Shown piece by piece: positions 1-64,000 of a stretch of DNA of 64,000 nucleotides. Position numbers and translations under genes: made by a program. The stretch is taken from positions 91,982,368 to 92,046,367 of the forward strand of contig OX457036.1 in NCBI GenBank assembly GCA_949752735.1, in the 5' to 3' direction. Positions within the stretch are counted from its first letter, which is position 1; the number at the start of each line of letters is the position of its first letter. A model generated the notes under the pieces. That model made no database searches and was not told the origin of the DNA. It was given only the letters and a program-made list of their open reading frames with translations. Source of the DNA: Lumbricus terrestris (Eukaryota; Annelida; Clitellata; Crassiclitellata; Lumbricidae).

Positions 1-626
1 AATTTTCATACTTGAAATTTCTGACAAATTATTAAAATTTGCTCTCTTTTCCCTCCCGATAAAATTCCTCCTGGCCTTTTTAGTCTTTTGCTCCAAAATT
101 CAAAATTGTTGGTCCAAATTCAAAATTTGTTTGACGTTTCTCACAACTTTTATAGATATTCGTTTTATTGACAAAATAACCGATCGACATAACGCGACAG
201 TTAACAAGCACAAAGGAGCAGCGGATAAAGCCTAGTAAATGTTTTTATACAGCATCCGTGTTATGAAGCTTTTATTGTTTTTATTGGTTAGTTCGAATGG
301 ATGTAGCCTAGGGCGTAGATTGTATTTTCCAGGGAGTCTATCGGAGAAAAATTTGCGAAGAACATGATTGTCATCTATAATAGGCTAATAGCTGCAAAGA
401 GTGCAGCATCAGCAGACTCAGCCATAATGGCTGCTTTGGGGGAGTCGGATGGAAGGAATCCAGCTCGTCTGACATTGTGCATTTTTACCTAAAAAAATAA
501 TTTTTTACATAAAACAGTCGGAAAACCGCAGTGAGAAAAAGCTAGATCTTGAAGAAAAACCTAGAAACCTAGACAAGACCGAAAATACCTAGATCTAGGT
601 GGAAAAAGCTATGAGTGGCATCCCTG
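1..626. mobile_element. Truncated hAT-like element, right part
   Basis: The end reads GAGTGGCATCCCTG (613-626). This is the inverse of the left end CAGGGATGTCACTC at 12746, and both copies share interior text such as GGCCTTTTTAGTCT. CAGGGATG-type ends are common in hAT elements. The left end lies outside the window, so the target duplication cannot be tested. No reading frame of note. Confidence 0.5.
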
Positions 627-934
627 CTTCTGCGCTTATTTCCTTAGCTTATTTCTATGCCGCCCACACACTTTAACACTTACAATACGCTGCTTCCTTG
701 CGTTCCGCGGATGACGAATGTAGTGAATAAGTAAGTAAATGAGTTCTATTATCATGACTAATAAATTTAATTGTAAAAAATATCACACATTAAATTAAGC
801 AAAAAATTATCATACCAACAATTATATTTCGTCTATGACTTGATATAGATGGAAAGCAATTTGCAAAGCGCATTGCGTGTTGGCCAATCGGAATAGTCTA
901 TCTTAAAGAACTTGCTGACACTGTGACACCGTGG

Positions 935-1006
935 TCCCACATGGTCTAGTGGTTAGGATTCCAGCCTTTCACGTTGGCGGCCCGGGTTCGATCCCCGGTG
1001 TGGGAA
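935..1006 (+). tRNA. tRNA-Glu (anticodon TTC)
   Basis: A complete 72-nt cloverleaf. The acceptor stem TCCCACA pairs with TGTGGGA and the discriminator is A. The A box is in GGTCTAGTGGTTAGGA. The anticodon stem CCAGC/GTTGG (one G-T pair) encloses loop CTTTCAC, giving TTC at positions 34-36. The T stem CCGGG/CCCGG carries loop TTCGATC (B box GGTTCGATCC). There is no intron and CCA is not encoded, as expected in eukaryotes. It decodes Glu GAA/GAG. All stems pair, so it is probably functional rather than a SINE head. Confidence 0.93.
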
Positions 1007-1011
1007 CAAAA

Positions 1012-1015
1012 TTTT
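1012..1015 (+). terminator. Pol III terminator of tRNA-Glu
   Basis: A TTTT run 6 bases after the tRNA 3' end, the minimal RNA polymerase III terminator. Known rule applied to visible sequence. Confidence 0.6.
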
Positions 1016-1336
1016 AACTGTTAAAAACATGCAGATCTTACAACAATGTGATGTTTTTTACGTTTATTCGCCAGAAAGCTAGAATGTAAAAGAAACAAAT
1101 TAAGTGCAGATAGATGGAAAACTAGGACACATAATTACAATAGCCTACTTAATGTAGACCAAGATAATCAGAACCATATAGACGTGTGGACTACAAAGTG
1201 GACGGGTCTTGCCCTTTTCCCCCGCCAGAATAGCTGGTGAGAAATAAGAAAATTTCTAAATGGGGGCCATGGCCGGATATGCCCCTCTGCCAGCCCCTGG
1301 ATCCGCCTCTGTACGGTTCTAGCCCTAACTCCTAAC

Positions 1337-1479
1337 CATAGGCGCAATCACGTCCTAAAAGTTGGGGGACCATAATGAATCACGTCCTAAAAGTTGGGGG
1401 ACCATAATAATAAAGTTAGCGGACCACTCAAAAGTTGGGGGACGCGTCCCGTGGGTCCCATAGGGTGGTTGCGCCTATG
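1337..1479 (+). mobile_element. hAT-type MITE (CATAGGCG family)
   Basis: 143 bp with ends CATAGGCGCAA and TTGCGCCTATG, an exact inverted pair. Both sides carry the perfect 8-bp target duplication CTCCTAAC (1329-1336 and 1480-1487). The interior repeats CACGTCCTAAAAGTTGGGGG twice. A nearly identical copy lies in opposite orientation at 20744-20889. An 8-bp duplication is the hallmark of hAT transposition. No coding capacity, so mobilised in trans. Confidence 0.88.
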
Positions 1480-1487
1480 CTCCTAAC

Positions 1488-2647
1488 AATAAATTATTTG
1501 GATCGATCTGCATAATAGGCCAAAGATATAATAATGTAGGCTAATCAGAGCCGTGCAGAAGTAGGGTGAGTGAGTAGGCATAGCGGATCTACAATTTTTT
1601 TATAGGATAGGCTAGATCCGCGACGCCACGAGTATAGACATAGGTATGATACATACGTCTAATTATAATAGCATAATAGGCTGACTGACAATGAGTGAGT
1701 ATAGGCAAACAAACATGACATGCACAGTAAGAGTAGGACTATAATAATAAATTATACTACAGCCTAGCTAGCATGACGTTCAACTGACGCTCCTCGTGGT
1801 TTCTCGGACTTTCTCCATCAGCAACTATCGCCAATAGGCCTATCTCCTAGCTAATGCCAAAGACCATAGAGTTTCACTTAAAGGTCTTTGCTAATGCTAT
1901 GACAAATCTATCTCGTAGCCTATGACCTTCACGTTATTATCAAACATAAGACGCTTAGAGGTTTATGCCGTTTCTGGTTCGGCTATAGGTAGGTTATGTT
2001 TACGTATTCATTTTGCTTATGTGGACTTTAGTCTGGCAGGCAACGCTTGTTGGCGGACCCTGCAGGTAGACGTAAGAGGTCTGCAATGTCAACGCAGAGT
2101 AGGCCTAGGCCTGTCCCAGGCTGTCTGGCCCGTATAGGCCTTCAAGACTGCAGGCCTAGCTGCGGCGTCAGTGCTCCTGCCGTGCATCCTGCTAGCCTAA
2201 AAGCCAATTAAAGCACATGCCTTTCGTGCTTTATAGCCTATACTTCCTGCTGGTGTTTTGACAGTTTTGGAGTGTTTTGGCGTGTCTATCCAACAAATCC
2301 AAAGTTTAAGGTTAGAGAAACCGGCTTAATCTCGGTAACACTTTTCTACTTGCTAAACTTTCCTCTCTGCATTTGGGCATAGATAATCCGCTGAAGAAAT
2401 CTACGAAGTTTTTCTTAACTGTCTTGGTAAATAAAGATTCCTTTCGGTTTCGATCATAAACTTTATAAACTTTTTTATTGTCTTGTCGTATTGACGTAGT
2501 CTTGTTTATTTAGTTTCTTTTAATACTGTTTATAAATTGAATATAATGTAATATCAAGGATATAATATAATTGATATGTACTATATAGTTACTATATATA
2601 GTACATATCAATGTACCTATTAGTGTTGTTGATGCACAGTTTAGTGG
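1488..2647. other. AT-rich non-coding stretch, many TAGGC motifs
   Basis: No gene recognised. Numerous TAGGCTA, TAGCCTA and AGGCCTA motifs (for example near 1538, 1840, 1915, 2101). A short palindromic run of TATATAGTAC text lies near 2576-2610. Confidence 0.5.
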
Positions 2648-2860
2648 GGTGCAGGCATAGGCGGAGGTTTGGTTTTCGTTCTGGGGGGATTTGGTCCAGA
2701 ACTAGCCGCGCCGAAAAAACATTTTTCCCAGGCCCCCAAAAAGTTGATGACCTTTTTTAGTCGTTTACTTGAAAGTTCTTAGGAGGGGGCTAAACCCGGA
2801 AAAAGATACCATTTACACGGTAAAAAAGGGTAATTTGGGACGTTAAACTACCCAATTACC

Positions 2861-3363
2861 GGTAATTGGGTAGTTTAGCGTCCCAAATTATTCAGGTTAT
2901 TGCTGAGGCTTGGAATTTCTCGTTAATCGAACTTCTATTTTTATCAAAACTGGAACCTTCATCCAGCTTCCATTTCTTTATCGTTCTTTTCATAAATCCA
3001 GCTTCTATTTTTTAGATCTATAAAAACATTCATCCAGCTTCCACTTCTTTATCGTGCTATTCGTGAATCCAGCTTCTATTTCAGATCGATGAAAACTTGT
3101 ATCCAGCTTCTATTTCAACTACTATTACAGAACTTTGATCCAGCTTCCATCTTTGAAACGTTCTTTTCATCATTTTAGCCATAAGAAATCCTCATCCAGC
3201 TTCCATTTCTACGCGATAGTTACCCCGTTTGGGACTTCCTTGAGGTTTTCAAGCACACATTTTATCATTTCCTCAATTAAATATGTGTTATTGTATATGT
3301 CTTTCAGTTATTATTGCAAAGAAATGGTCAAAATAATTTGGGACGTTAAACTACCCAATTACC
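2861..3363. mobile_element. Nested foldback element with 29-bp inverted ends
   Basis: Starts GGTAATTGGGTAGTTTAGCG (2861) and ends with the inverse (3335-3363) with one mismatch over 29 bp. A third copy lies immediately before the left end (2832-2860) in the same orientation as the right end. That makes a 58-bp near-perfect palindrome at 2832-2889. Interior is a degenerate minisatellite. Superfamily unknown. Confidence 0.6.
2950..3215. repeat. Degenerate minisatellite, ATCCAGCTTC unit
   Basis: About six copies of a ~48-50-bp unit whose core is ATCCAGCTTCCATTTCTTTA. The same core appears three more times outside the enclosing hAT element at about 3570-3662, so the array or its parent element was duplicated or split. 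Confidence 0.7.
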
Positions 3364-3435
3364 AAAAAAAGATTATGGGACTTCTGGGGGGGCTTAGCCC
3401 CCCAGCCTCTGATAAACTCCGCCCATGGGTGCAGG

Positions 3436-3758
3436 ACATTAACCCCTGGACAAAACCCCCTGAACAACCCCGTCTGACAAACCCCGGTCAACTCCCCCTC
3501 TGATTTAGCTTAGGACAAGCCCCCGGACAAAACCCCCTTCACTGGTGCACATAACATGTGTTTCATCATTCCAGCTTCTATTTAAATAGCAACAATTGTT
3601 TTTATCAATCCAACTTCTATATAGATATAACATTATTTTTCACCAATCCAGCTTCCATTTAGGCAAAAAATTCGTTTCATGCAAGATTCTATTCTTTAGG
3701 CACATTACAAAATAACGACAGTTTAATAATGATGAAAGTAATCGATTCGAATTGGAAC
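3436..3758. repeat. Continuation of ATCCAGCTTC repeat and unique DNA
   Basis: Three degenerate copies of the ATCCAGCTTCTATTT unit at roughly 3565-3662, then AT-rich sequence. No gene. Confidence 0.5.
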
Positions 3759-3766
3759 AAGTATAT

Positions 3767-3928
3767 CAGTGGCGTAGGCAAGGGGGGGTTTTGGGGGTTA
3801 AAACCCCCCCCATTGGCTAAGAAAAAAAGATTTTTTAAGGTTATTTTTTCATTTAAGTAAGAAAAAATAGCAAAAAACAGGGTTTCCGGCCATAAAACCC
3901 CCATGAAAAATTCCTGGCTACGCCACTG
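3767..3928. mobile_element. hAT-type MITE (CAGTGGCG family)
   Basis: 162 bp with ends CAGTGGCGTAG and CTACGCCACTG, an exact inverted pair. Flanked by the perfect 8-bp duplication AAGTATAT (3759-3766, 3929-3936). The interior has poly-G then poly-C blocks. A longer relative with an insertion is at 14921-16459. Lies about 150 bp upstream of the MyD88 start codon. Confidence 0.88.
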
Positions 3929-4074
3929 AAGTATATAATCTTGTAGGTGATCTATTTCAATTAGCTTAATTAGCTAATTGGTTAGTATCTAATCAGTTAG
4001 TTACCCACCTCTGATGCACTGGTAAATGTCAATTTTTTTACAACAGTTTTTCTGCGCATTCATTGCCCGCCTCA

Positions 4075-9294
<5,220 letters not shown>

Positions 9295-9495
9295 CAGTTA
9301 CTCAACTGTACAGGACCAATGCAATACCAATGCAATTTATATATGCTATTTCCTTGTAATAACGTTTAAATGCTTCTAGCACTTCTGAATATTTGAAGTC
9401 TACCTCCCCAAGGAAGGGGGGCGCTTGATAGTGTAGAGGTTAGCATACTTGACTGCAGTGACTAAAGTGTGGAAAAATAGGTGCCTGGACGCAGG

Positions 9496-10658
9496 CAAGG
9501 ACACTGAGACTGATAGGGGAAAAAGCAAGGAGAAAAAACAGCAAAATATACAACTGCTTTGTGGACTTCAGCAAGGCCTTTGACAGCATAGACCAGAGCA
9601 CAACATGGGCGGCCATGGAATCGTTCGGGGTGGACAAGAGGCTGACACGCCTGCTAAAGGAAATAAACGGAAACGCAACAGCAGCAGTACGGATAGGGAG
9701 CGAAAAGGGACACTGGTTCAAAACAAGTAGAGGCACGAGACAAGGAGACCCAATATCCCCAAGCTCCTTCATCATTCTGTTGGAAAGAGTCTTGGACAAG
9801 ATAAGAGACAAAGAAGATGGGGTAGTAATAAGCGGCACAAACATCAACAACCTATGTTTCGCAGATGATATCGACTTGATCGAAAGAGACGAGGAACGGC
9901 TAGAAACAACAGTGCAAGCACTAAACGAAGAAGGAAAAAGATATGGGCTGACTATGAATTTTGAAAAAACAAAAATTCTAGTATTCGGAGAAAAAGACTA
10001 TAGCAAGAAGCTAGCCATTGACGGAAACCAGCTGGAAAATGTGGAAAAGTTCACATACCTCGGGAGTAACATGACGTATGACCTGGACAACAGAAAGGAA
10101 GTATGGACAAGAATAGCAAAATCTATAGCAGCGCTAAAGGCCATGGACAAGATCTGGAAAAGTAAATCGATAAAAATGGAAACAAAGAAAAAAGTGCTAC
10201 AGACATGCATCTTCAGTGTAGTACTATATGGATGCGAGTCCTGGACAATAACGAAGGAGATAGAACAAAGGCTATTAACTTTTGAAAGAAAGTGCTACCG
10301 AAAGATTCTGGGAATAGACTGGACACAGAAAGTAACGAACGTAGAGCTTTACAAACGAATACGCCAAAAGGAGAACATCATGCAGAAGCTGATCGGAAGA
10401 AAGCTGAGGCTTTTTGGGCACATCTGCAGAATGAAGGACGATAGGAAAATAAAAACGCTGATGTTCGGCAGGATGGAAGGAACAAATCGAAGAGGGAGAC
10501 CGCATAGGGAGTGGCTGGACGACATCACCAGGTGGGGGAGAGCATCACTCCAAGAGCTGAGTCACGCGGCGATGGACAGAGGTCGATGGAGGAGCTTGAT
10601 GAAGATGGCAGTGGACACCTACGGGCGCTGAGCCCATGGTTCCTGATGATGATGATGA
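9496..10658 (+). mobile_element. 5'-truncated non-LTR retrotransposon
   Basis: Inserted in the hAT element above and flanked by the 10-bp duplication TGGACGCAGG (9486-9495 and 10659-10668). Ends in a short GATGATGATG tail after the stop codon. 5' truncation inside the RT gene plus a variable-length duplication are the normal products of target-primed reverse transcription. Confidence 0.85.
9498..10631 (+). pseudogene. Reverse transcriptase, 5'-truncated but open
   Basis: The frame is open from the first bases of the insert to TGA at 10629-10631 (377 codons). It has the RT palm: VDFSKAFDSI with the first catalytic Asp, the GTRQGDPISP turn, and CFADDIDL (the FADD active-site box). The thumb region follows, then the C-terminal WTITKEIEQRLLTFERKC and GRRGRPHREWLDDI segments seen in endonuclease-RT elements (RTE-like or a related clade; not assigned). 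The endonuclease and the start of RT are missing, so it cannot be autonomous. The absence of stops suggests a fairly young copy. Confidence 0.88.
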
Positions 10659-11251
10659 TGGACGCAGGGCTTACCTCTCCAAAAGAAGTGCCTGGACGCC
10701 CCTTACCTTTCTAGTCTGTGCTCGCCAATAAGTGGCTGGACGGCGTTCAAATTTTAAAACAAGTGCATGGACGCCGTCCATGACCGTCCAGGCACACTTT
10801 AAGCCCTGCTTGACTGTCAGTTTAGAGACTGTGGTTGAAGTTTCCATCTGACAGAAATTTGGTTGAAGATTTTTGCTCCATCTGCCTCCCCCCCTCTGCC
10901 AACCCGTCTCTAATGAGTACACTGATCGTTCACTGTCGATGGGAAGATAAGAAGGCAGAGGAGAGGACTTGCCGCCCACCGTCCTCATAAGCAGAGGCCA
11001 AGAAAATGAAGTCGCCAGCACTTCATACCCACGACTGCCTTACATATAGTTTAAAGGGCGGCTCTTCTTGTATCTGCACAATGCAAGGGATAAACAACAG
11101 TTGCCTAGTTAATTAATCTTTTGTTCTAGTCCGCTGTATCTGATGGTTATAATTACCTTGCTTGTATTGTTATAATTACCTTGCTTGTAGTTCATATTAT
11201 CATTTTTTATCAGTACATGGACCACTTGTGACGTGTTCAACTGTTCATGCT

Positions 11252-11432
11252 CAGTGGTTAAAGTGGTTTGGGTGAGCAATGGGAACGCCGAATATGTGAG
11301 CAGTGGGAACACCAACGAAGAGTTTTATTGGATTCCATCGTTTCATGCAGGTGAGCAGTGGGAACGCAAGCAAAGCATTTCGAGAGCAGTGGGAACGCCG
11401 TTCCCACGCGCTCCCACCCACTTTAAACCCTG
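11252..11432. mobile_element. hAT-type MITE (TAAAGTG family)
   Basis: 181 bp with left end CAGTGGTTAAAGTGG and right end CCACTTTAAACCCTG (partial inverse). Flanks TTCATGCT (11244-11251) and TTCATGCA (11433-11440) agree at 7 of 8 positions. The interior repeats GAGCAGTGGGAACGC several times. Related ends are found at 9456-10808. Confidence 0.65.
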
Positions 11433-12345
11433 TTCATGCAATCGAGAACAAAGATCTTTGTTAATGTGAACAGTTTTGTCCTGTGTGTGAACTTGTGTAA
11501 GTTCTTTATAGATCAACTTTTCAGATCAGAAGACTTGGTGGCACAGTCAATGGATAAATAATCGTTAGTTAGTAGGTTTAAAAAAATTCATTTTAGTAAC
11601 AGAAGATAATAAGGGCTGCATATAAATTATGTGCAAAGGTAGGGGAGGGCAATAAGGGTCACGGGATATAGGTGATTTGCGTACGGTTTCGTACACCACG
11701 GGAGGGTCCTGACAAAATGTACGTAAGCAAAATAAATGTCTGATTATGGGTCCACATTAGCTTATTTATACCTCTGTATTATCCTGTTGTTGTCCAGAGG
11801 CTTTTGATTACGTTTTAATTAAATTTTTCAGATCTAAATAGTAAATAGTAAACCACATCAGGTAACAAATACGATGTTCAACAGAAATAAATAACCTACG
11901 GTAAAATAACTGTTTTATTGACGACTTTAGCTAATTAGCTTTTGTAAGGGAGAGAAGTTTATTTTTATGTACTCGAGGGTTCCACAAAATGTACAAGTTG
12001 CAACAGGAGAAGCGGTTTTGAAAATGCCATTTTTGCATACGTGATAAATTGATGGTCCCCAAATAGACTAGTAAGTTTTTTGCAAGCCGAGTGGCAAAAT
12101 CGTGTGTAACAGATTTTGACAGTTGTACATAGCCATCTCAAGTTTCTAGGAAACCGAGACAAATGCGTTCTGTTTGATTCAATCTTATAAGATGTGTTTA
12201 TGACATTTCACCTGATTGTAAGGACACGTTGCCTTAGTAACAGTTTTGCTTTGGCTTCTGTTATGTCATTTTGTTCTCTGTGGTACAGTTCTGGGTTGAA
12301 GCAATTTTTGAATTATATGTATGATATTCAGGGTGTGACTTGTCA
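11433..12345. other. Non-coding stretch with a dispersed repeat
   Basis: No gene seen. 11897-12042 resembles 48893-49053 (listed separately). The remainder is AT-rich unique sequence. Confidence 0.5.
11897..12042 (+). repeat. Unclassified dispersed repeat, copy 1
   Basis: Begins ACGGTAAAATAACTGTTTTA and includes GGGTTCCACAAAATGTAC and ATACGTGAT, in the same order and spacing as 48893-49053. No ends or duplication identified. Confidence 0.6.
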
Positions 12346-12359
12346 GGGGGAAAGGGAAC

Positions 12360-12508
12360 TCGTGGCAAGGAGTAGTAAATTTAGTAAAGTGGCAAGTAGT
12401 AAATTTAGTAAAGTGGCAAGGAGTAGTAAATTTAGTAAAGTGGCAAGGAGTAGTAAATTTAGTAAAAGTTGCAAGGAGTAGTAAATTTAGTGAAGTGGCA
12501 AGGAGTAG
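12360..12508. repeat. 27-bp minisatellite with an inverted copy
   Basis: About five tandem copies of GGCAAGGAGTAGTAAATTTA followed by GTAAAGT. An inverted copy (TTTACTACTCCTTGCCACTT) lies at 12600-12619, so the region can fold back on itself with a ~90-bp loop. Confidence 0.8.
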
Positions 12509-12745
12509 CTTACTTGCCTGTTATGTGTTATGTTATGTGTTATGTTATGTGCAATCACTAAAAACCCAAACATCACCACATCATAACCTCTGCTCTCAAA
12601 TTTACTACTCCTTGCCACTTTAATAAATTTAATGTGAAATTTTAACCGATGGCTAGACGCAAAGATTTTACCAGGTAAAATCTTTGGCTAGACGGTTGGT
12701 AGCCTGGCCCATTGAGATAAGAAAGGACAAAATTATGCTAGAAAC

Positions 12746-12930
12746 CAGGGATGTCACTCTGATTTTTAAAAAAGGTCATATCTGGCCGAAAAAAGGCTAG
12801 ATCGTACAATTTTCGAAAAATTTATTCAATTTTCGGGCTTGAAATATTATTTCTGACTTTTTCAGTTGTTCAAAGGCTCCGAAAAATTTCTGCTTCTCTC
12901 AAATTTGCTGATGGCCTTTTTAGTCTAGAA
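12746..12930 (+). mobile_element. hAT-like element, left end only
   Basis: Starts CAGGGATGTCACTCTGA, the inverse of the right end at 626. Interior shared with positions ~1-90 (ACTTGAAAT..TTTCTGAC..GGCCTTTTTAGTCT). No right end or matching 8-bp flank found, so it is truncated. Confidence 0.5.
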
Positions 12931-13510
12931 TATAGACCTAGTATATTAATTAGACGTGCGCGAGAGCCTATACATGTAGATGTCTAAGAATAGGTATGTA
13001 GATGTAGCCTAGAGGCATATGTGAAGCGCAATCTGACATTTCCTATTGTGTAAGCTAGGATTATCATTGTCGTTATTAATTTTTGTTTTGTTGCGATCTG
13101 TTTATTCCCCAGAGGCTAACTCTTGTGAGCGTCTGATTAAAAAGGTCACGTCATTAGATTATGATGGTCAGAGGGTGTAGGCTATATATACTGAGTAGTG
13201 AGTAGGCCTACATTGGGTCCTTTAAAGGCTTAGTTAGGCCTATAGGCTACTATTGATACAGCTATAGTGACCTAGTTTGGAGTGGGCAGTGAGGTAAGTG
13301 GAGCGGCCACCGTGAAAGTAGCAGCAAGTAAGACGGCGATACCAGTTGTTCAAAGGCAATTTATTATTGTCACAATAATTTCAATGGTCATCGCATGACA
13401 GACAACGAGAGTTAGGCTACGAGATTTTGTCCAAACTGTTCCCTTATAGACCTACTGGCGAGAAGCTAATTCAGATTCGAAGTAGGCCTACAAGACCATT
13501 CAGAGTGTGT
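12931..13510. other. Non-coding stretch
   Basis: No gene recognised. Several TAGGCCTA motifs (for example 13204, 13235, 13486). Confidence 0.4.
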
Positions 13511-16669: not shown

Positions 16670-17499
16670 TTGTGGAAACATTTAATCTCCAAACAAACCG
16701 GTCTTTCAAACTGTTCAAAGACAGCTGCTGCATGCTTGTTTCTGGGCTTTCTTCCATTCCCGAGAAAAGCATTAATTATGTACTTGTCAATCTCTTTTCT
16801 CACACCGGGTCAGTTTTTGATGACGGAATTATGTCTGTCTGTACAGATTTCGAATTTGATCAGAGGCTCGAGGGAAAAGGAACCAGAATGAGAACAATAA
16901 TAATTATTATTGCCTGTGATGTTACAATATTTATGATAGAGCGATCTCTCGTGCTGCATGGTCATCGCGACGACGAATCAGATAGAGCGCTCTATTTACG
17001 TATACGTCGCTGTTATTTGACATTCAGTGCAGCTTATTGTCCACGACCCTTACCTTGTGAAAGCCAGCAGTCTGGATGCGCCTGGTAGATACCGCACATA
17101 GGCTACCCGGATTAAGCCCTCGGGGACCGCCGCCATAATCTCATGTGGTTCTTGATATCCTCCATTAACTTTCGTGCACGATACTCCTTCCACAGGTCAC
17201 AGTCCCACATGTTTATTGATGCATACTATTGACTATAATAATTCAAACTTAAGTAAGTGTAGCTTAATGGAATACCAATATATATTTTAAATGACACGAC
17301 GTTATGAACGGCGATACAGTTCAGTTTAGTGGTTTAGATCCTAGGCCTATAGGCCTACCGACTGTAATATGGTTCACTTTTTTCAACTCTTGGCAGTGTG
17401 AAAAAATGGTCAAGAATATCATCGAAATAAACAGTAGGCCAACCTAAGCGATTACTCTCAACAATGAGAAATTCCATTGCAGTTAGGCGTTTGTGTTAT
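16670..17499. other. Non-coding stretch
   Basis: Open frames of up to 140 codons start at 16652-16666 but match no family I recognise and have no splice or homology support. TAGGCCTATAGGCCTA occurs at ~17345. Confidence 0.35.
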
Positions 17500-23635: not shown

Positions 23636-23719
23636 ACTACTACTACTGCTGCTACTGCTGCTGCTGCTACTGCTGCTACTACTACTACTACTACTAGGCT
23701 ACTACTACTACTACTACCG

Positions 23720-26995: not shown

Positions 26996-27157
26996 AAATG
27001 ATAACAAATGATAACAAATGATAACAAATGATAACAAATGATAATGACAATAATAATAATAATAGCCTAATAGGGCAATGATGATAATAATAGTGATCAT
27101 ATAGCAGCAACAACTGCAACAGTTATGATGATAGTGATGATGATGATGGTGATGACG

Positions 27158-31757: not shown

Positions 31758-31759
31758 TA

Positions 31760-32973: not shown

Positions 32974-32975
32974 TA

Positions 32976-33349
32976 TAAATAAAACGGCCAATAATATTAT
33001 CTAGTGCTTATCAGACAAATTGTTTTCGATGAGGCTGTGATTATAATATCATGTATGGACGCAGTACATAAGTTGTTGTGACCTCGTTCGACTGTTCGGG
33101 AGACCTTAATGTTGCTCGGATTAAATGACGAAATCAGAGCTGTGAATTGATTCCTCGAACCCTTCTCAACACTAAGCTTCACTTTCGACCGTTTTGCAGT
33201 TACCGGTCTGTTGGTTTGTCTGTGTTTGAGTTGAGAGTGTCGGGGGATAAATTCACGCTACATTATGTTTATTATGATGTTTCCGAGTCTCTAATCCTTT
33301 GTTGACTGTGAGGATTTACTGCTGCAATTATATGCTGTTTCTATTATTT
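32976..33349. other. Non-coding stretch
   Basis: No gene recognised. Confidence 0.35.
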
Positions 33350-46584: not shown

Positions 46585-46880
46585 CGAGCAGTAGTAGTAG
46601 CATTAGTAGTAGTAGCATTAGTAGCAGAAGCATTAGTAGCAGTAGAAGTATTAGTAGCAGAGGTAATAATTATTAGCAGTGGTAATAATAATAGTAGAAG
46701 TAATAGTAGTAGTATTAGTAGGCCTGACAGTAATAACAATGATAATAATAACAATAATGATGATAATAATAATAGTCGTAGTAGTGATAGTGATAGTAGT
46801 TGTAGGTGTAGTAGTAGTAGCGATAGTAGTAGTAGTAGTAGCAGTAGTAGTAGTATTAGTAGTATATATATTAGTAGGCC

Positions 46881-46954
<74 letters not shown>

Positions 46955-47938: not shown

Positions 47939-47960
47939 AACTGCCGATACTAGGCTACAA
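47745..47960. repeat. (CTA)n/(CTG)n microsatellite
   Basis: (ACT)n, (GCTACT)n, (GCT/GCC)n, (ACT)n in order. TAGGCTA at 47951-47957 interrupts the tail. Confidence 0.97.
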
Positions 47961-48764
47961 CTACTTTTATCATTATCATTGCTATTATTATTATTACTAT
48001 TATTATTCTCATCATCATCACCATCTTCACCGACACAATCATTATCATTATCATACGTTCTATTATTATTTCTGTCACTAGAGACCTATTCATTTTGCGT
48101 CATTCTCATTTGTGTCCGTGCATTGTTTACGATAGTTTGCTTGCTGCATTCTCCAGAGAGACGTCTACGGTATTCCCTAATAATTGAGCATTTGTCGATA
48201 GACTCTGAGACGTTATATATAGCGTATACTCGGTGACGGTGTATTGCATTTGTCAGGTTTCGTAATGAATCCATCACAAGATCCAACCATTTCATGAATT
48301 GTGTGCCATAAATATCGCCCTAAAGACGACGAGTTTGAACGAGTCTGAGACAGAGCGGTGTGTTATTTTTAACCCACTTTATAATAACATATCCTTAATA
48401 GTCTGATCAAGATATCTAATCTTATTATCGCTTGGCTTTGGGGCACCAGCGGTTGCCTCCTTGTGCGTATGAAGTTACAGGTACGATTTATATACTGATC
48501 GATGTATTGCAGGCTGTCTGTTCAGTTGGTTGGCTATATAGTTAAGATTTATGTGTTCTGTAATCTGAGTTCCTGTAAATTGTTTCAACTGCATAATTGT
48601 ACACTGTAACCGGTTGCGGTCTGTAAACCGGATTGTTGATTAAAAAATATTATTATTATTATTATTTTTATTATTTTATTATTTTTATAAGGTTATTATC
48701 CACTTAAATAAAACAAAACAATTGCTTGCAGTAACAATTGCTTTTCTAACTTTATTCTCTTTGT
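47961..48764. other. Non-coding stretch
   Basis: No gene recognised. (ATT)n at 48645-48690. Confidence 0.35.
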
Positions 48765-49823: not shown

Positions 49824-50847
49824 TAGGGTTGCCAACCGTCCAGATTTTTTCTGGATCGTCCAGAAATAGCATCCCGTGTACAGAAAACATAGGAAGGTCA
49901 TTCTGGACAATGTAATGTCCAGAAATAATATGAGTACGGAAAAAATAAAAAGTTGCACCATTCAACAAAGACAATAACTTTCCTGAAATAAAATAATCTA
50001 TATTAATAAAATTTGGTAAGAGTCTGAGATTTACAAAATGTTTCAAGAAAGATGCACCCAATGTCTATAGACACGAGTAGGCCTATTAACCTACTTGAAT
50101 CAGCTGGTTCAATTTTGAAGAAAATGTTTCAGAAAAAATCAAAATAGTGAGTCGTGATGATATTTTTTGCGTTCAACAGTTTCATAGAACCCGGAACTCA
50201 TTCATTGGCACACGTGGAATTACAGTTTTGGGAAATGACTTATACAAGGAACAAGGAACATTGCTTCTTAAGACAAGTTCTTCCAAAACTGAAGACAAAG
50301 CCAAAAGTCGATAAATGTTGGGTAGAATTTCTTTTTAAATGTGATGCTCCAAATTTCTAGAAACTGGTTGGGCAATTCCGATCAGTAATGCACATGTCGA
50401 AGGTATTTTCTCAATGATAAAAAATCTGTGGACTGATGAATGAAACCGGATGAGGCCTGAACTGGTAAAAGTGAACTGTGCGTGAAAGTCAATGCATGTC
50501 GATCAATCTTGCAAATTACAATGGAGATTTCATACATAATGTTTCGGAGCAGAAATTTCTGCTCAATGCATTGCAAGCAAAGTGAACAGAAATACAGATT
50601 TGAAAGAAAATAGGAGACCTTAATGTACTTCATGTTTGATAATTGATATTAGAATCTTGTTATAGGCCTACTAGTCCATGAAATAATATTCCTCCTGTAC
50701 TTTCTGTGCGCATTTCATTATAACTTTCATGGTATCCATACAAGGATACAGATCATGTACGGTACATTTTCACAGTAGGCCTAAATATTCTAAATGTAAC
50801 ATATTTTTCAGGATAGACCTACCTACAAGGATGATAATTTAATGAGT

Positions 50848-50893
<46 letters not shown>

Positions 50894-50993
50894 TGCTCTG
50901 CCAAAGTGGCCGGATCCTAATCGCTACAATTTCCACAAATTGTGGGGCTCGCACTACGTCCAGAAATTTCATAATCGAAAGTTGGCAACCCTA
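49824..50993 (+). mobile_element. hAT transposon fossil with transposase remains
   Basis: 1170 bp. TAGGGTTGCCAAC and GTTGGCAACCCTA are a perfect 13-bp inverted pair. Perfect 8-bp duplication GTATTCAC (49816-49823, 50994-51001). The interior carries the C-terminal end of a hAT transposase and an (AT)n run. It is the only element here that directly ties 8-bp duplications to a hAT protein. Confidence 0.9.
50160..50610 (+). pseudogene. hAT transposase C-terminus, decayed
   Basis: Open part to 50360 (RNKEHCFLRQVLPKLKTKPK). Then, after a stop and a frameshift, PISNAHVEGIFSMIKNLWTD and NRMRPELVKVNCA (stop between them). The SNA-VE-FS-MKN-WTD-NRM-PELVK pattern is the hAT C-terminal dimerisation region. 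Several stops, no N-terminal BED finger seen. Inactive. Confidence 0.75.
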
Positions 50994-53150: not shown

Positions 53151-53995
53151 TGTCGCATTTTATTAGTCGCCTTTCTTATTAAAACATTCCTATTTTAATT
53201 ATAAATCTTATTCAGTGATAACAAAGCTGCTATTATTTTCTATTTTCTGTGCAGAATGTTTGTTGCGGTCAATGACCAATGACCATGCGTCATGTCAACA
53301 ACATACAGAAAATTGTTATTCTAGAATTTATTCAGGACTGGAGAGCAACGGAATTTCTTTATTCCGTCTGGTCCAGATTTTGCGAATGTTGAAACGTCAG
53401 GAGACTCATTCCAACAAGTATTGTCTTAATTTTCAGTGGTGGCATTGCTAAATTCCTCCTCTTAGAAACAAGTTGGAAAGATCAGATGGACAATTTAACG
53501 CGCTATAGATTGACAATCCACGGTTCTTCACGATGCTGTTTCTAGCGACTTGTGGAAGAACAGATGGATATCAAATAGCAGATGAGGATGACTTGGACCG
53601 AGAAAGTACGAAAATCGTCGTTTAATCTTCTGCATGGCATTGTAGATGATCAAAACAATCTCCTACTACGACCTGGTCTGATTAACAACAGTGGCCAATG
53701 ACATCTGATTGATGTAACTAGATGTGGTGAAGCACAAAATATCTCGACCATTATTTATCAGAGACGGAATGAAACACTGTCGTGGTCAACACAATCGATG
53801 TGGATGAGATTATAGGATGTGTGGCGATGATGATACACTAGAAGCAAAACATCTGCGTAAACTACACAAATCTAACGACTCAATTGCAGCTGCTGTACGG
53901 ACTTGAGCGCCGAAGGAAACTCGTTAATTCCCACTAAAGTCTTTGCTCGAGCAGTAAATTGCCTAAGAGTAGATTGTCGAGTATTAGCTGCCGAC
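53151..53995. other. Upstream region of the receptor gene
   Basis: No exon recognised. Presumed 5' flank or intron of the GPCR gene. Confidence 0.35.
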
Positions 53996-54571
53996 ATGTG
54001 TAGCAATAACTCGGATAAGTGGTCGGTTGGGAGTGGCGAGGACAGGACGTGTACGTGCGACCCGGTGTTGCTCCAACCGAACATTACCAAGGACGTTGGA
54101 TCGGACAGGAACCAGTCCACCTCGACGGACCCTGACGACACACTTCCGGTCGAAATGACCTTCAACGAGGAGAGCCTGATGACGATCATCGGGTACTCGA
54201 TCCTCTGTCTGATCGCGACGATCGGTAACGTTACCGTCTTCTGGACTCTGTGGCGCTACCGTTACCGTTCCCGCGTTACCCTCTTCCTCATGCACCTCTC
54301 CGTGGCCGACCTCATCGTTGCCCTCATCTACATGCCACTCGAGATCGTCTGGAAGGCAACGGTGTCGTGGGAGGCGGGGGACTTCGTGTGTCGTGTCATG
54401 ATGTTCTTTCGTGCGTTCGGCTTCTACCTGTCGTCATTCATCCTCGTTGCTATCAGTCTCGATCGCTACTTCGCTGTCGCCAAACCCCTAAGTCTCCAGA
54501 TCGCCGACAGAAGAGGGAACATCATGCTCGTCTGCGCTTGGACGTTCAGCGTCATCGCCAGCATCCCACAG
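53996..54571 (+). CDS. GnRH/AKH/corazonin-type neuropeptide receptor, first coding exon
   Basis: Class A GPCR, plasma membrane, expected to bind a GnRH-superfamily peptide and couple to G proteins. 192 codons from the first in-frame ATG to CAG|GTCAGG (donor 54572, phase 0). An extracellular N-terminus of ~60 residues has three N-glycosylation sequons (N4, N29, N39). TM1 ~62-84 has conserved GN (N78). TM2 ~95-118 has LSVAD (D105). The TM3 disulphide Cys is C132, followed by SLDRYFAVAKPL (DRY at 156-158). TM4 starts at ~175 with W182 and stops at the intron. The MPLEIVWKATVSWEAGDFVC loop and CRVMMFFRAFG fit the GnRHR/corazonin-receptor group better than oxytocin/vasopressin receptors. TM5-TM7 were not found downstream. 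The frame is open further upstream but without an ATG. Confidence 0.85.
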
Positions 54572-54739
54572 GTCAGGCGACTGTTATATATTTAGAATAA
54601 TTAATAATTATAGATGTTATTTGTCGACTTAGAGGGCAGAACATCTGTGCTCTGCTTTTATCAAATTTCCTTCCTCCTGGGAAGTTCTCCTGTCCCTCCT
54701 TTCCCCCAAATCCTCTCCTCTTCTACTCTTGTTTTCTTG

Positions 54740-58435: not shown

Positions 58436-58545
58436 GTGGTCCAATTCTCTAAATATTTGGAAAATTTTAGCGTGATATGTCATCAGGTAGGCCTATTAGA
58501 GATATATGCAAAACAATTTGGCTTACTTTTTTGAACCATGGTGTA
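58436..58545. mobile_element. Mariner inverted-repeat fragment carrying TAGGCCTA
   Basis: Collinear with the right arm of the Tc1/mariner relic (32873-32973): CAATTCTCTAAATATTTGGA, AAAATTTTAGCGTGATATG, TTGGCTTACTTTTTTGAA. It differs by an extra GGCCTA at 58490-58495. Confidence 0.85.
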
Positions 58546-58688
58546 TATCCATATGCTAATGCTATTGCTGTTGCAACCTCTGTTTTTATTGCCAAGTCTC
58601 TACGACGTGTTGGAATTATTTTCGGTTTTCGTGACTAAGGCCTATCTAGAGCAAACGGTTCTGTGGCATGTTATCATGAGTTCGTCGT

Positions 58689-59849
58689 TGTAGCGATATC
58701 CTTGATCACACCCATACGTTCTTACCCTGCTATACATATTGTTGAATGTTAATTACACATGTTAAGTTAGGAAGAGGCCCTAGTTAATGATTAATTAATG
58801 ATTTGATTCAGAACTTTCACATTGCTCTGTTTAATTAATTAACCAGTACTAGAACCAGTACTTAGGGGCAAAAATATATATTAAACAGGGGCAAACATTT
58901 CGAGATATAGCAACATTCGGTCAGTCAGCCAATGGGAGGCGAACAAAAGGATCGTCTGCTACGCCTGCGCAAAGAGCATCTAGGGAGGCTGGAGAAGAAG
59001 GACGTAATGGCGGAGGTTTGAGCGATCGCAAGAAGTTGGTAATTGTTGTCGAACATTATCGTGTGATTTCGTGACATTCGGGACGATTGGAAGCCGAATA
59101 ACGAACGCTTAGTGTCCTAAGGTGTGGACTATAATGAAGGTCAACGAGCGTAACGTACGATCGATATAGCGCTGTACTTACCGGTAAGAGCATGTATGCG
59201 TTGCAGTTCACAGCGTATACCTTAGATCAATGAAGTTACTTCTCGTGACATTGCGAAGCGATAAATAATCTACAGAGACTACTTCGAACTGTAAATGAAA
59301 GTCGCAGTAGTTGGTAAATGCGATAAGGAACAGGAACTGTTCAAACAGTAAGCAGCGACCGCAAAGAAATTCAACGTTCGAGAAGAAAAGTCCGACAATT
59401 ATCCACAAAGGAGAAAAGATGCCAACAGCTTGGAGATCAGCCATTGATGAGAGAAAGATGAAGACTGGCCGGTGGTGAATAACTACAAGAACTAAAGAAT
59501 TCAACGCGGGAGGGTAGATATTAAAATTATATCCCTCAAATTACTGTAATCAGTACTGGTTTTAGGTAAGGCTATTTAATAGAAGATTGTGTTAAATCAG
59601 ACATTATCCCAAACCATTAGAGAAAGGTTTTGTGTGCTGTACATGTTGACATATATTAATATTCATATGCTAATATTATTTTTATATAAAACATTCGACT
59701 TGTTGATTGATGACATATAGGTCAATAACCTACATTACAGCGAATAGGAATATAGCATGCAAATGAGTAACTTGAACTCAGTTCTGGGTTCTGGAATATA
59801 ATTCCACTCAAACTATTGAGCCGTAGTGTGGTCTTAGCATTCCGTTACA
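58689..59849 (+). repeat. 5' LTR
   Basis: 1161 bp from TGTAGCGATATCC to GTTACA (TG..CA ends). The start is uncertain by 2-3 bp because GTTGTAGCG is shared by both LTR junctions. Contains transcription start and poly-A signals by analogy; I could not place them. Confidence 0.85.
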
Positions 59850-59853
59850 AAAC

Positions 59854-59874
59854 TGGGGGCTTCGTCCGAGGGAT
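59854..59874 (+). promoter_or_regulatory. Primer binding site
   Basis: TGGGGGCTTCGTCCGAGGGA, four bases after the LTR. It resembles the complement of the tRNA-Pro 3' end (TGGGGGCTCGTCCG) with one extra T and an extra A. Primer identity is inferred. Confidence 0.6.
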
Positions 59875-60153
59875 CTAGAACAATTTTAGATTGTAAATCT
59901 AAGGGATCTAAGAAGTATTAGATTGCGTAGTTTAGCTACGATAGAAATTAGTTTGACTCACGTGTGTATAAGATTCAAGCGCCGTTTGAATATTAATTAG
60001 GTGTGACGTAGCTTGTAGTTCGATTATACTGACTGTTATTGGTTGACAAGGAGGTCAGGTCTAAGGTTGAACTGATTCACCGCGAAAATTTAAATAGCGC
60101 TTTGGAAAATTTTCTAGCGCACGATTGTCTATAAGATAACTAATCTTTGACAA

Positions 60154-62694
60154 ATGGCGGCGGAATTTGCAAAGTGGGTTAAGATTGGATCGGACCTTGG
60201 TTATTCGGATCAAGGACTTAGAGATTTCGTCAGAGAGAGACAAGAAGAGAGCAAGGCCTTTAAACAAGCAGAATTACTGGCTGATTATGAAAAAGAGAAA
60301 TTAATTTCGGAACGAGAAAGGGAACGAAGGCAAGAAGTAATAGCTGACAAGAGACGTCAAGAAGAGATAGCTGACAAAATACGCGAAGAAGAGAAACGAG
60401 AAGCTGACAAGAGACGTCAAGAAGAGATAGCTGACAAAATACGCGAAGAAGAAATAGCTGACAAGAGACGTCAAGAAGAGATAGCTGACAAACGACGTAA
60501 TGAGGAATTAGAGTTACGAAAGCTGCAGATGGAGATGGAAGAAAAGAGGAATTCGGAAGAGAGAGAGAGAGAAGCCAATCTGAAGAGGATTGAATTAGAC
60601 AACCAGAAAACGATTAGACTTAAAGAACTGGAACAAGAAAGACGACAAGGCGATAGAGATGATTGGATTGGAAATGGTTATAGTAGGGAAACCAGTGGAC
60701 AGAATAATAATGCCAAGAATGTGAAGATGCCAGTATTTAGGGAAGACAGAGATTGTCTTGATGCTTATCTACTACGCTTCGAGAGGACCTGCATGGCATA
60801 CGAAGTCCCAGAAAGAATGTGGGCATTAACACTAGTGAAATCCTTAGATGGAAAAGCATTACAAGTTTTCGAGAGGTTGGAAGTAGATGAGGCACAAGAT
60901 TACAAGAAATTAAAAGAGGAACTGTTGAAACGATTCCAGCTCACGGAAAATGGATATAGAAAGAAGTTTCGCTCTTCTAAACGTGACACAGATGAAACTG
61001 TAACTCAGTATGTTGAGAGGTTGAGACGATATTTGAGGCAGTGGTTGTCAATGGCTGGATTCAAGAATGATTATAAAGGATTAGAGACACTGGTATTGCG
61101 TGATCAGTTCTTAGTGACATGTGATGATGAGATGAGATGCTTTCTCAAAGAGCAGGGTAAGGTGAATTTGGAAACGTTGCTAGAAAAAGCACAGAATTAT
61201 GTGGAGGCTAGAGAAATTAGCGAGAGGAAGCGGACACCTATTCACAAAGAAAGGGACACTGAACCTGAAGGTCGTTTTAGAGAATTTGCAAAGAGCAATA
61301 GTGAGAATAGAAGTAGTAGTCTTGGACGGAATAGGAACAGGAAACAGGACAGGTGCGAAGATAGAGGTCGGTTCAAAAATGAATGGGATTTTAGGAATAG
61401 TAAACGGAGGGAAGTTGGTAGAGAAGATCCAAGAGGAGGGTGCTTTCATTGTGGATCTACGTTACATTATGCATCAAAATGCGATAAGATGGGACCAGGC
61501 GCAAGGTCGCATACGGTCGCCACTATGCAGTGTTTTGAAGATAGAGAAGAGGAAGATGTGGAACATGAGGTTACCATATCGTGCTATGAAGCTGAAGGAG
61601 CAGAAACGATGGGGGCTTATACGAGCATGGCGTTGGTGAATGGGAAACAGGTGAAGGCACTAAATGATTCGGGTGCAACATGTGTTGCCATTAGAAAGGG
61701 TTTAGAGAAACCTTACCAGTATACTGGACGTAAAATGGTTTGCAGATTTGCTAATGGAACCAAAGTAAAATACCCAACAGCTCTGATTGACATCAAGAGT
61801 AAAGAATTTGAAGGGAAAGCAGAGGCATTAGTGATAAAGAACTTGGTCAAAGAGCTGATAGTAAATCCCGGATTATACGAGAAGAAACCAAAAAGAATCG
61901 GGTGTATAAATGAATTCAGGGTCAAGGACGTTGGAGTGAGTACCCATGAGGATGATGTCACAAGGGGCGATTCTAGTAAGGAGGTAGTCGCTGGTGATGT
62001 TGAGGAGACAATGCATAAACGAGTGACGTTCGAAGAAGATTATTTGCTAACAGGTGAACGTGACACACTTGAAGAAAAGACGGATGGTGGTCTGGACACA
62101 GCATTTAGGTCCAATATCATAGAGGAGTCGAAGGCAGAGGGGCCTGTGAGAGGAATATTAGCCGGGTACGATACACGTACACATGACAAAGATAGGAAAG
62201 AGCGAAAAGGTGAAACAATAAAGAAGACTTTTAGAAATAAGCCACTGAGATTGGTGGAAACATATGACAAATATTTAATCACGGGCGGAAGCAGTGAGTT
62301 AAGTGACAGTCGTAGAAATCAGAGTAAATATTGGAAGGAAAGAGCAGACTGGAGAAATGAAGAGAATAGAAATAAACGAAATGTGAGCCAATATAGGAGA
62401 TCGAATGAATGGAGGTACGGAGAATACGAAGAGAATCCAAATGTGGATAGTAGAGAAATAAGGTGGAATAGGAGGAACACATGCAGATATAATTGGAGAA
62501 ATAATAGACCGTGGTACAGAGAAGAACCAGCTAATCAGTTAGGAGGAAGACAAAATAAGAGTTATGGAGGTCGCAATGATCTGAGTAGGTGGAAAAGTAG
62601 GTCATGGAATGACGGAGAAAAGTCATGTCCTAAAGGCAGTGTTAGGTATAGAACTAACAGAGATGTGAGTGTAGGGAGTTTTGAGGAAAAGTAA
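60154..62694 (+). CDS. Gag-protease polyprotein of Ty3/gypsy element
   Basis: Structural protein and protease of the retrotransposon particle, 846 codons, fully open. Residues ~25-165 are a very charged Arg/Glu/Lys coiled coil with internal copies of RRQEEIADK. About 190-340 is the retrotransposon Gag (capsid) domain (FREDRDCLDAYLLRFER, YKKLKEELLKRFQL, YVERLRRYLRQW). The CCHC zinc knuckle is C430, C433, H438, C443. The aspartic protease motif ALNDSGATCVA has DSG at 505-507. The last ~270 residues are unusual, rich in Arg, Asn, Trp and Tyr (WRNEENRNKRNVSQYRRSNE), perhaps RNA-binding. The start is ATG 60154, context CAAATGG. There is no RT in frame or behind it; the stop is TAA at 62692. Confidence 0.9.
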   Translation: MAAEFAKWVKIGSDLGYSDQGLRDFVRERQEESKAFKQAELLADYEKEKLISERERERRQEVIADKRRQEEIADKIREEEKREADKRRQEEIADKIREEEIADKRRQEEIADKRRNEELELRKLQMEMEEKRNSEEREREANLKRIELDNQKTIRLKELEQERRQGDRDDWIGNGYSRETSGQNNNAKNVKMPVFREDRDCLDAYLLRFERTCMAYEVPERMWALTLVKSLDGKALQVFERLEVDEAQDYKKLKEELLKRFQLTENGYRKKFRSSKRDTDETVTQYVERLRRYLRQWLSMAGFKNDYKGLETLVLRDQFLVTCDDEMRCFLKEQGKVNLETLLEKAQNYVEAREISERKRTPIHKERDTEPEGRFREFAKSNSENRSSSLGRNRNRKQDRCEDRGRFKNEWDFRNSKRREVGREDPRGGCFHCGSTLHYASKCDKMGPGARSHTVATMQCFEDREEEDVEHEVTISCYEAEGAETMGAYTSMALVNGKQVKALNDSGATCVAIRKGLEKPYQYTGRKMVCRFANGTKVKYPTALIDIKSKEFEGKAEALVIKNLVKELIVNPGLYEKKPKRIGCINEFRVKDVGVSTHEDDVTRGDSSKEVVAGDVEETMHKRVTFEEDYLLTGERDTLEEKTDGGLDTAFRSNIIEESKAEGPVRGILAGYDTRTHDKDRKERKGETIKKTFRNKPLRLVETYDKYLITGGSSELSDSRRNQSKYWKERADWRNEENRNKRNVSQYRRSNEWRYGEYEENPNVDSREIRWNRRNTCRYNWRNNRPWYREEPANQLGGRQNKSYGGRNDLSRWKSRSWNDGEKSCPKGSVRYRTNRDVSVGSFEEK

Positions 62695-62919
62695 TAGGAT
62701 GGATGTAGACAGGACGAGCTGTCCAAAGAAGAGCAGAAGTCCTGCAAACAGAAGTTGATAGTAGTAAGTATAGAATAGTTAAGTAAGTAGATATGTAAAT
62801 ATAATACATTATGAGATTAAGTTGAGTTATTGTTGAAGGTAGGTTTGCGAGTTATGTTGAGTGAAAGGAAAATAACTAAAATATGATTAAACCAAAGGAA
62901 GAATCTGTTGATAAGATAA
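62695..62919 (+). other. Deletion junction region
   Basis: Non-coding purine-rich sequence where RT would be expected. No palm-domain motif seen in any frame. Confidence 0.6.
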
Positions 62920-63405
62920 AGGAAGATTGCCAGGATAACAGTCGAATGGAATGATGATCTAGAGAGGTCATTTCAGAGTCTAAAGAATGCTTTATCAGAA
63001 GCACCGATATTGAAGTTACCTGAGATTGGTGTGGAATTCACTTTGAGAACGGATGCGTCCAATACGGCGATGGGATGTGTGCTGATGCAGATTCATGATG
63101 GGGTTATGCATCCAGTGGTTTATGCAAGCAAGAAATTTAGTGAAAGTGAAAGGAACTATTCTGTGGAGGAGAGAGAGTGCCTGGCGATGGTTTGGGGGAT
63201 TAGAAAGTTCAACCGCTACCTGTATGGACAGGAATTTGTGGTAGAGACTGACCACTTAGGACTGCAATACTTAAAGACTGGTAACATAAGAAATGCTAGA
63301 GTAATGCGCTGGTACCTAATGCTTCAGAACTACAGCTTTAGAGTTAGATACCTCAAAGGTAGTGACAATGTAGTGGCTGACTATTTAAGCCGAGGATTAG
63401 AGTAA
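62920..63405 (+). pseudogene. RNase H domain remnant of gypsy pol
   Basis: Open from just after TAA 62917-62919 to TAA 63403-63405, with no ATG near its start. TVEWNDDLERSFQSLKNAL is the RT-RNase H connection. RNase H follows with its acidic residues: LRTDASNTAMG, YSVEERECLAMVWGIRKFN, VVETDHLGLQYL, and YLKGSDNVVADYLSR. The domain itself is intact, but no palm and no integrase are present. Confidence 0.9.
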
Positions 63406-63664
63406 GTAGAATTAGACATGTAGATAGGAGAATCAGTGTAAATGCAATGTAAATTACAAGTATAGGTACGGTAAAGGTGATACAAGTTGAATTATCACAA
63501 TAGATGTTAAATGTTAATGTTGAGTAGGTTGTTGCATAGTTACATAGCTATAGCTAGTGTAAGTGCTAGTGTAAATGACTGAGTAGTAGGAGTAGGCTAT
63601 TATAAGAAGTATGGGTAGTTTTAATAAGGATATTGAAAAGAAAATTTGTAGCAAATTTTAATTT
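63406..63664 (+). other. Non-coding 3' internal region
   Basis: No integrase motifs; AT-rich with GTAGTAGGAGTAG text. Confidence 0.5.
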
Positions 63665-63672
63665 GTGGGGGA
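63665..63672 (+). promoter_or_regulatory. Polypurine tract
   Basis: GTGGGGGA directly before the 3' LTR; expected primer site for plus-strand DNA. Confidence 0.65.
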
Positions 63673-63676
63673 TTGT

Positions 63677-64000
63677 TGTAGCGATATCCTTGATCACACC
63701 CATACGTTCTTACCCTGCTATACATATTGTTGAATGTTAATTACACATGTTAAGTTAGGAAGAGGCCCTAGTTAATGATTAATTAATGATTTGATTCAGA
63801 ACTTTCACATTGCTCTGTTTAATTAATTAACCAGTACTAGAACCAGTACTTAGGGGCAAAAATATATATTAAACAGGGGCAAACATTTCGAGATATAGCA
63901 ACATTCGGTCAGTCAGCCAATGGGAGGCGAACAAAAGGATCGTCTGCTACGCCTGCGCAAAGAGCATCTAGGGAGGCTGGAGAAGAAGGACGTAATGGCG
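63677..64000 (+). repeat. 3' LTR, cut by window end
   Basis: 324 bp, no difference from 58689-59012 that I can see. About 840 bp remain outside the window. Confidence 0.9.

Follow-up and report, generated by a model that had tools for sequence, protein, structure and literature searches.

The 64,000-nucleotide stretch of Lumbricus terrestris DNA analyzed here (hereafter, the window) contains the palindrome TAGGCCTA, that is, GGCC between TA and TA, together with the words TAGGCTA and TAGCCTA, at frequencies that raise the question of whether these words are scars of insertion at TA and, if so, which process left them.

Over-Representation of TA-Flanked Words in the Window

The palindrome TAGGCCTA was observed 32 times in the window, whereas 0.81 occurrences were expected from an order-2 Markov model. 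Under the same model, TAGGCTA (21 vs. 3.76) and TAGCCTA (23 vs. 3.19) were also in excess; jointly, these 3-bp words amounted to 44 against about 7 expected by chance, so some of them are chance occurrences. The excess of TAGGCCTA depended on both TAs, since 32 of the 146 GGCC in the window were flanked by TA on each side and the runner-up pair of flanks was found only 4 times. The flanks of most occurrences were unlike one another, which argues against their being mainly copies of a shared repeat consensus, and the abundance of the motif that an earlier note on this DNA had reported was confirmed. Four TAGCCTA at 19134-19173 were part of one 15-bp tandem repeat. Fusion of telomere repeats (TAGG + CCTA) was ruled out by eye, the flanks carrying no telomere repeat. 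The sites (Table 1) were unevenly distributed: none was located within 2234-13005, whereas the longest gap across 2,000 uniform simulations was 8,532. Moreover, 14 pairs of neighboring sites were no more than 50 bp apart, compared with a simulated mean of 4.2. The window also contains a receptor exon (53876-54595) that is similar to receptors of the gonadotropin-releasing-hormone and adipokinetic types (80-84% identity in the three best matches); limpets (Patella), then other molluscs and annelids, were among the further matches.

Table 1. Positions of TA-flanked words and of an unscarred repeat copy in the window
Feature	Position	Strand	Remark
TAGGCCTA, first bases, sites 1-16	1835, 2100, 13203, 13235, 13483, 14857, 15478, 17342, 17350, 25723, 25909, 25954, 28038, 28610, 30098, 30645		
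TAGGCCTA, first bases, sites 17-32	30968, 34257, 35562, 35755, 38217, 41040, 42465, 44843, 46521, 46875, 50078, 50663, 50776, 55657, 58347, 58488		
Two adjoining scars, TAGGCCTATAGGCCTA	17342..17357		
TAGGCTA in (CTA)n array	23695..23701		Insertion; length 5 or 2 bp
TAGCCTA scar in (AAT)n array	27063..27069		Array restored on removal of GCCTA
TAGGCCTA in (AGT)n array	46875..46882		Phase uninformative
TAGGCTA at end of (ACT)n array	47951..47957		Insertion weakly indicated
Empty copy (TA) of the L122:2900-3080 family	48537..48636	-	Other copies have GGCC, GGC or GCC at that TA
TAGGCCTA scar	58488..58495		6 bp absent from the related repeat copies at about 31.8 kb and 32.9 kb

Genome-Wide and Sample Counts

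The assembly that contains the window comprises 331 contigs with a total size of 1.056 Gb. Genome-wide, TAGGCCTA was found 354,398 times and its reversed control 8,418 times; for TAGGCTA plus TAGCCTA, the count was 460,350 against 85,208 for the reversed words; these control words contain CG and are perhaps rare, and the Markov expectations in the sample described below (2.6 and 22.6 per 264 kb) point to a similar background. The excess extends far beyond the window. The observed minus reversed counts of all words summed to about 0.72 million, i.e., one per about 1.5 kb. The density of TAGGCCTA in the window (0.50 per kb) was above the genome average (0.34 per kb).

The 264-kb sample consisted of the window and twenty 10-kb stretches, all from contig C1, and was denser than the genome. 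In this sample, with simple repeats masked, TAGGCCTA had the top over-representation score among all 8-mers (128 vs. 2.6). Its number per 10 kb ranged from 0 to 16, a spread that could reflect differences in the age of the sequence or hopping on a local scale. In viral contigs, pairs of TAGGCCTA separated by 0-30 nucleotides were found at at least 120 loci, six inspected contexts proving to be chance or tandem words; a comparison of LINE and RNase H proteins in viral contigs confirmed no relative.

Filled and Empty Sites: Insertion with TA Duplication

Five sites of the window had been quoted in the earlier note as places where the state before insertion can be read, and they proved to be of unequal value. 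Insertion at 58488 was confirmed by the 6 bp extra relative to two related repeat copies, one of which (near 32.9 kb) reads TA and the other, inverted, CA. Insertion was also confirmed in the (AAT)n array, where the form without GCCTA aligned better to other arrays (62.6 vs. 55.4 bits, and 64.4 vs. 57.2 in a second comparison). For the (CTA)n array, the insertion itself stood, whereas its length and score were ambiguous (empty/filled 119/114 bits, second comparison 165/171), the length because in a period-3 array 5 bp are indistinguishable from 2 bp (GG). The values at the end of the (ACT)n array were 70.7/67.1 and, in the second comparison, 109/106. As for the (AGT)n array, the argument that removal of GGCCTA restores the phase proves nothing, since 6 bp equal two repeat units (122/115, second comparison 168/168).

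A systematic test was performed on 271 scar sites outside arrays, the flanks being joined with the scar or with TA alone and matched to the rest of the sample. A homologue spanning the site was found for 38 of them, with the TA-only form fitting better in 22, the scarred form in 15, and a tie in 1. Among the control words TA-N3-TA and TA-N4-TA, a homologue was found at 660 of 3,101 sites, with the TA-only form better in 100, the filled form in 545, and 15 ties (22 vs. 15 against 100 vs. 545, Fisher p 6e-9). In a wider comparison that included extra repeat copies, 60 sites had a homologue, which was empty-like for 35. Filled/empty pairs that repeat one repeat group were left out of the counts; outside one repeat group, an empty-like homologue was found at 21 sites, a number that is one too low because the independent scar L151:1530 was excluded along with the group. 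Ten of these junctions were gapped or poor and 11 ungapped, and 10 of the latter carried the single TA to be expected of empty sites, the remaining one having CA.

In (ACAT)n arrays genome-wide, a doubled TA was found around GGCC 390 times and around GGC 185 times, whereas GGCC without the second TA and all reversed controls were found 0 times; the 390 matches are occurrences, several within one array, and hence are not independent events. Thus, the repeat copies and the genome-wide tetranucleotide arrays uphold the earlier claim, and, as judged from these alignments, the scar words are insertions with duplication of TA.

Repeat Family L122:2900-3080 and Target Preference

The outcomes at single target sites could be compared in the repeat family of L122:2900-3080, for which 33 alignable copies were found in the sequence examined (the groups of copies were defined solely by identity to this query). 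At one GTAC, the 13 copies closest to the query (87-100% identity) contained TAGGCCTA, L160 contained TAGGCTA, and L123 contained TAGCCTA, whereas the remaining 18 copies had TA (16), CA (1), or lacked the stretch (1). Consequently, one and the same TA had several outcomes (GGCC, GGC, and GCC), and comparison of the copies showed that a whole group of similar ones had inherited a single scar. At one ATAC, L151 had TAGGCCTA and L166 had TAGCCTA, while the near-identical copies L122 and L142 had a variant with only GG added ahead of CTA; TA was found in 25 copies, and in the other four the site was substituted, deleted, non-homologous, or read TATATAGCCAAC (the window copy). The other TAs of the unit were scar-free by eye, and both scarred sites were RTAC.

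A target preference of TAGGCCTA was also revealed in the sample, where GTAC (15 vs. 3.7) and ATAC plus GTAT (39 vs. 15.9) were over-represented and CTAG was absent (0 vs. 3.5). The composition at the first flanking base was nearly equal for the 3-bp forms and TAGGCCTA in the sample, suggesting that the 3-bp and 4-bp forms probably result from one process.

Age of the Scars

Decayed forms were few: 9 of the 12 one-letter neighbor types of TAGGCCTA summed to 72 in the sample, where about 50 were expected and 128 words were intact; this estimate leaves out TACGCCTA (21 vs. 3.9), TATGCCTA (21 vs. 8.8), and TAGACCTA (46 vs. 6.3), which may be other kinds of scar and which, if counted as decay, would make the scars appear older. 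Scarred and TA copies whose aligned flanks were 98-100% identical were found for L135:504, L151:1694, L142:3085, and L152:1495. One TAGGCTA and no TAGGCCTA were present in an LTR element (58687-64000) with LTRs that were identical over the 326 bp seen. On these grounds, the scar-making activity looks recent or continuing; the description of the responsible element as "once very active" probably places it too far back.

Search for the Donor Element

No TA-flanked element starting with GGC was found in 359 kb of the 1.056 Gb; according to our estimate, a donor with several thousand copies in the genome could be missed by a search of this extent. In the window, inverted-repeat pairs of TAGG and TAGGC were no more numerous than in block-shuffled controls. 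The TAGC pairs did exceed controls (24/24 at 14961-16306, and array pairs), the pair at 14961-16306 being located within a longer inverted duplication. In the 359 kb, inverted-repeat pairs belonged to other element types or to interior sequence, and TA-flanked inserts started with CAGGGTGGCTC, CATATTAAACC, and TATTCTATAATG. Among the candidates rejected, the TAGGTTTTTTG pair at L132:6818-7348 was interior to a CAGGGTG.. element, and the TAGGC pair of L124 was interior sequence. Two TAGGGTTRCCA elements (window 49824-50993 and L139:1113-1551) are not TA elements because they have 8-bp target duplications (GTATTCAC and CTCCCCAC), and the 8-bp duplication CTCCTAAC was found for a short element, CATAGGCGCAA.., located at about 1337-1479. 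The leftover pairs with unlike outer flanks (2 TAGG and 7 TAGC) were weak or repeat-like.

The 378-aa Tc1-like family was likewise rejected, its terminus, read at one end, being ..CATGACTG-TA, i.e., CAGTCATG, which is a CAGT end and not GGC; for the 911-aa family, 1.4 kb was read and the end was not reached. Genome-wide, DDE_3 (Tc1-like) transposases (147 of 150 scored, from 2,198 candidates) and Transposase_1 (mariner) matches (16 of 20) were identified, and none was linked to the scars. The assignment of the scars to a Tc1/mariner-type transposon agrees with their anatomy; the element with GGC or GG..CC ends that it implied was not found in the 359 kb.

Origin of the Scars

The reading preferred here, with a probability of roughly 0.7, is that the scars were left by the excision of a cut-and-paste DNA transposon that inserts at TA and both ends of which start with 5'-GGC; the absence of a donor element from the 359 kb searched speaks against this origin. 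Such an element would insert at RTAY and double the TA, and staggered cuts at its departure would leave both flanks with GGC as a 3-nt 3' overhang. Annealing of the self-complementary GC/GC tips, with one base filled per strand, would give TAGGCCTA; pairing of all three letters, with repair of the central G:G mismatch either way, would give TAGGCTA or TAGCCTA. The donor would have few copies that jump frequently, so that scars outnumber copies. That few elements jumping often yield many scars and few copies is arithmetic and not evidence. We infer the 3-nt overhang from the scar spectrum only; the element itself, its low copy number, and its frequent jumping are likewise postulated.

In the sample, TAGGTA (65 vs. 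97) and TAGCTA (49 vs. 49) showed no excess, which fits the model of a GGC overhang. According to published accounts, the nicks made by Sleeping Beauty lie three bases within the element, so that 3-nt 3' overhangs result and the footprint matches the overhang (PMC7827188), and the footprints of Tc1/mariner elements measure 2-4 bp (PMC7913693). It should be noted that the better fit of the filled form at 15 of 37 scar sites is counter-evidence, and that the GG-before-CTA variant of the L122:2900-3080 family fits the mechanism only with a lost CTA. Further words were in excess in the sample, namely, GGTC/GACC (46 vs. 6.6), GATC (17 vs. 3.7), GGCG (21 vs. 4.2), and GGCA (22 vs. 9.9), and a GGC overhang would predict them only with extra steps such as overhang deamination and errors at the filled base. 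Alternatively, GGT overhangs could anneal through G:T wobble, and repair mostly in favor of G:C would then yield GGCC, GGTC/GACC, and GATC together, and the donor may therefore end in GGT; GGC is kept as the simplest assumption. The GGTC/GACC words were unlike insertions, the empty form being better at 2 of 11 sites.

These additional words also bear on the possibility that more than one family of TA-targeting elements was at work, that the ends differ from family to family, and that GGC is merely the commonest, CATG being derived from CAT/CA, CCGG and CCG from CCG, and GATC from GAT. The masked sample did contain an excess of TACATGTA (36 vs. 5.3), TACCGGTA (15 vs. 1.3), TACCGTA (32 vs. 14.2), and TAGATCTA (17 vs. 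3.7); however, the empty form was not favored for the CATG, CCGG/CCG, and GATC words (2/6, 1/8, and 1/4, respectively), and TACATGTA is similar to (TACA)n and (TGTA)n, which are common repeats. We regard the contribution of several families as doubtful, and it is a supplement to the excision reading and not a replacement for it.

It is distinctly less probable that a TA-directed process never placed a whole element, for example with a mobile or domesticated transposase joining transposon tips to a target TA and letting go so that the GGC tips were healed in; the scars would then represent failed insertions and not departures. The presence of about 0.7 million scars with no donor seen speaks for such a process, and the scars and the target preference indicate a TA-specific enzyme, but the ordinary product of excision already fits, and a donor of the copy number estimated above could escape the search. 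To our knowledge, no element-free TA-directed process operates at such a scale.

Programmed DNA elimination, under which the scars would be somatic junctions healed after germ-line inserts were cut out, as in ciliates, appears very unlikely. The TA-bounded junctions, their high density, and the absence of inserts from the assembly sequence examined are in keeping with it, whereas the presence of GGCC in 13 of the 13 copies closest to the L122:2900-3080 query is not, since separate healing should mix the types, and the single TAs in other copies and arrays indicate that most sites never held an insert. A selected or structural word (one bound by a protein, or one that reflects an overall abundance of palindromes) is scarcely credible: TAGGCCTA is palindromic and the other palindromic 8-mers of the window are slightly in excess (363 vs. 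269 expected), but no other palindrome comes near it (the next, TACATGTA, 12 vs. 1.5), and the filled/empty pairs with TA duplication and the insertions in arrays would be left unexplained.

Comparison with Known Systems and Significance

Stowaway-type MITEs of plants target TA and are lost with small footprints; these elements are abundant and known in plants, whereas none were found here in 359 kb. In ciliates, the eliminated segments are TA-bounded and are excised precisely and at high density, leaving one TA, whereas here two TAs enclose GGC(C) and are common to whole groups of repeat copies. The footprints of Tc1/mariner elements, Sleeping Beauty included, resemble the scars in having TA doubled around 3-4 letters; the scars differ in having GGC(C) and not CAGT-type letters, in their heritable number within a single genome (about 0.7 million), and in that the donor was not found (359 kb). 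No report of such scars was found in the open-access literature, subscription papers being outside its coverage.

We propose tentatively, at somewhat less than even odds, that a transposon directed to TA, or else a transposase that lacks ordinary elements, was active until recently and left about 0.7 million heritable scars (about one per 1.5 kb) and almost no copies, the top non-repeat 8-mer of the genome being its footprint and the type of each scar recording how the break was healed. Footprints are usually studied few at a time, in assays. If the scars are footprints, hundreds of thousands of them in one genome would provide statistics on the germ-line repair of transposon breaks, on target choice, and on the history of an unseen element, and repeat annotation that counts elements would overlook such activity. 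Each scar adds 5 or 6 bp, and small insertions in this lineage would therefore stem in large measure from the process.

Other Elements and Genes

Besides the scars in which TA is doubled around GGCC, GGC or GCC, several other elements and genes were found in the window and elsewhere in the genome, as listed below.

Elements and genes observed (bare coordinates, window; C, contigs of the whole assembly; L, further stretches of the same genome)
Feature	Location	Character
Tc1-like family	C9:13829057; C18:2326733; C2:31629988-31650669	open frames of ~378 aa
Inverted-repeat element	31756-32977	arms 228 nt, 93% complementary
Adjoining TA-flanked element pair	L124:6078-8651	within larger inverted structure
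Short element, two window copies	1337-1479; 20744-20890	ends CATAGGYGCAA..TTGCGCCTATG
TAGGGTTRCCA-ended inserts (n = 2)	49824-50993; L139:1113-1551	
LTR retrotransposon	58687-64000	gag-like and RNase H frames
Rhodopsin-type receptor exon	53876-54595	resembles gonadotropin-releasing-hormone/adipokinetic-type receptors
Death-domain match in open frame	4015-4497	Pfam E 1e-8
tRNA-Glu (TTC) gene	935-1007	

In the Tc1-like family, the near-identity of two copies extended to the right end, and the C2 locus held a row of five copies spaced ~5 kb apart. The inverted-repeat element had a partial third copy at 58437-58547, and the TA-flanked pair comprised elements of 1,400 bp (ends CAGGGTGGCTC) and 1,168 bp (ends CATATTAAACC). 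The words TACATGTA, TACCGGTA, TAGATCTA and TAGACCTA/TAGGTCTA were also over-represented in the 264-kb sample (the window and twenty 10-kb stretches of contig C1), and are at most candidate insertions.

Target duplications of 8 bp were found around the first copy of the short element (CTCCTAAC), which had further copies in L147, L159 and L165, and around the TAGGGTTRCCA-ended inserts (GTATTCAC, CTCCCCAC), which are presumably hAT-like. The LTR pair of the retrotransposon was 100% identical (326 bp, the part inside the window), with domain matches to Retrotrans_gag, SCAN and RT_RNaseH.

The receptor exon had 80-84% identity to its best matches, and the tRNA-Glu gene was the sole tRNA detected within the window.
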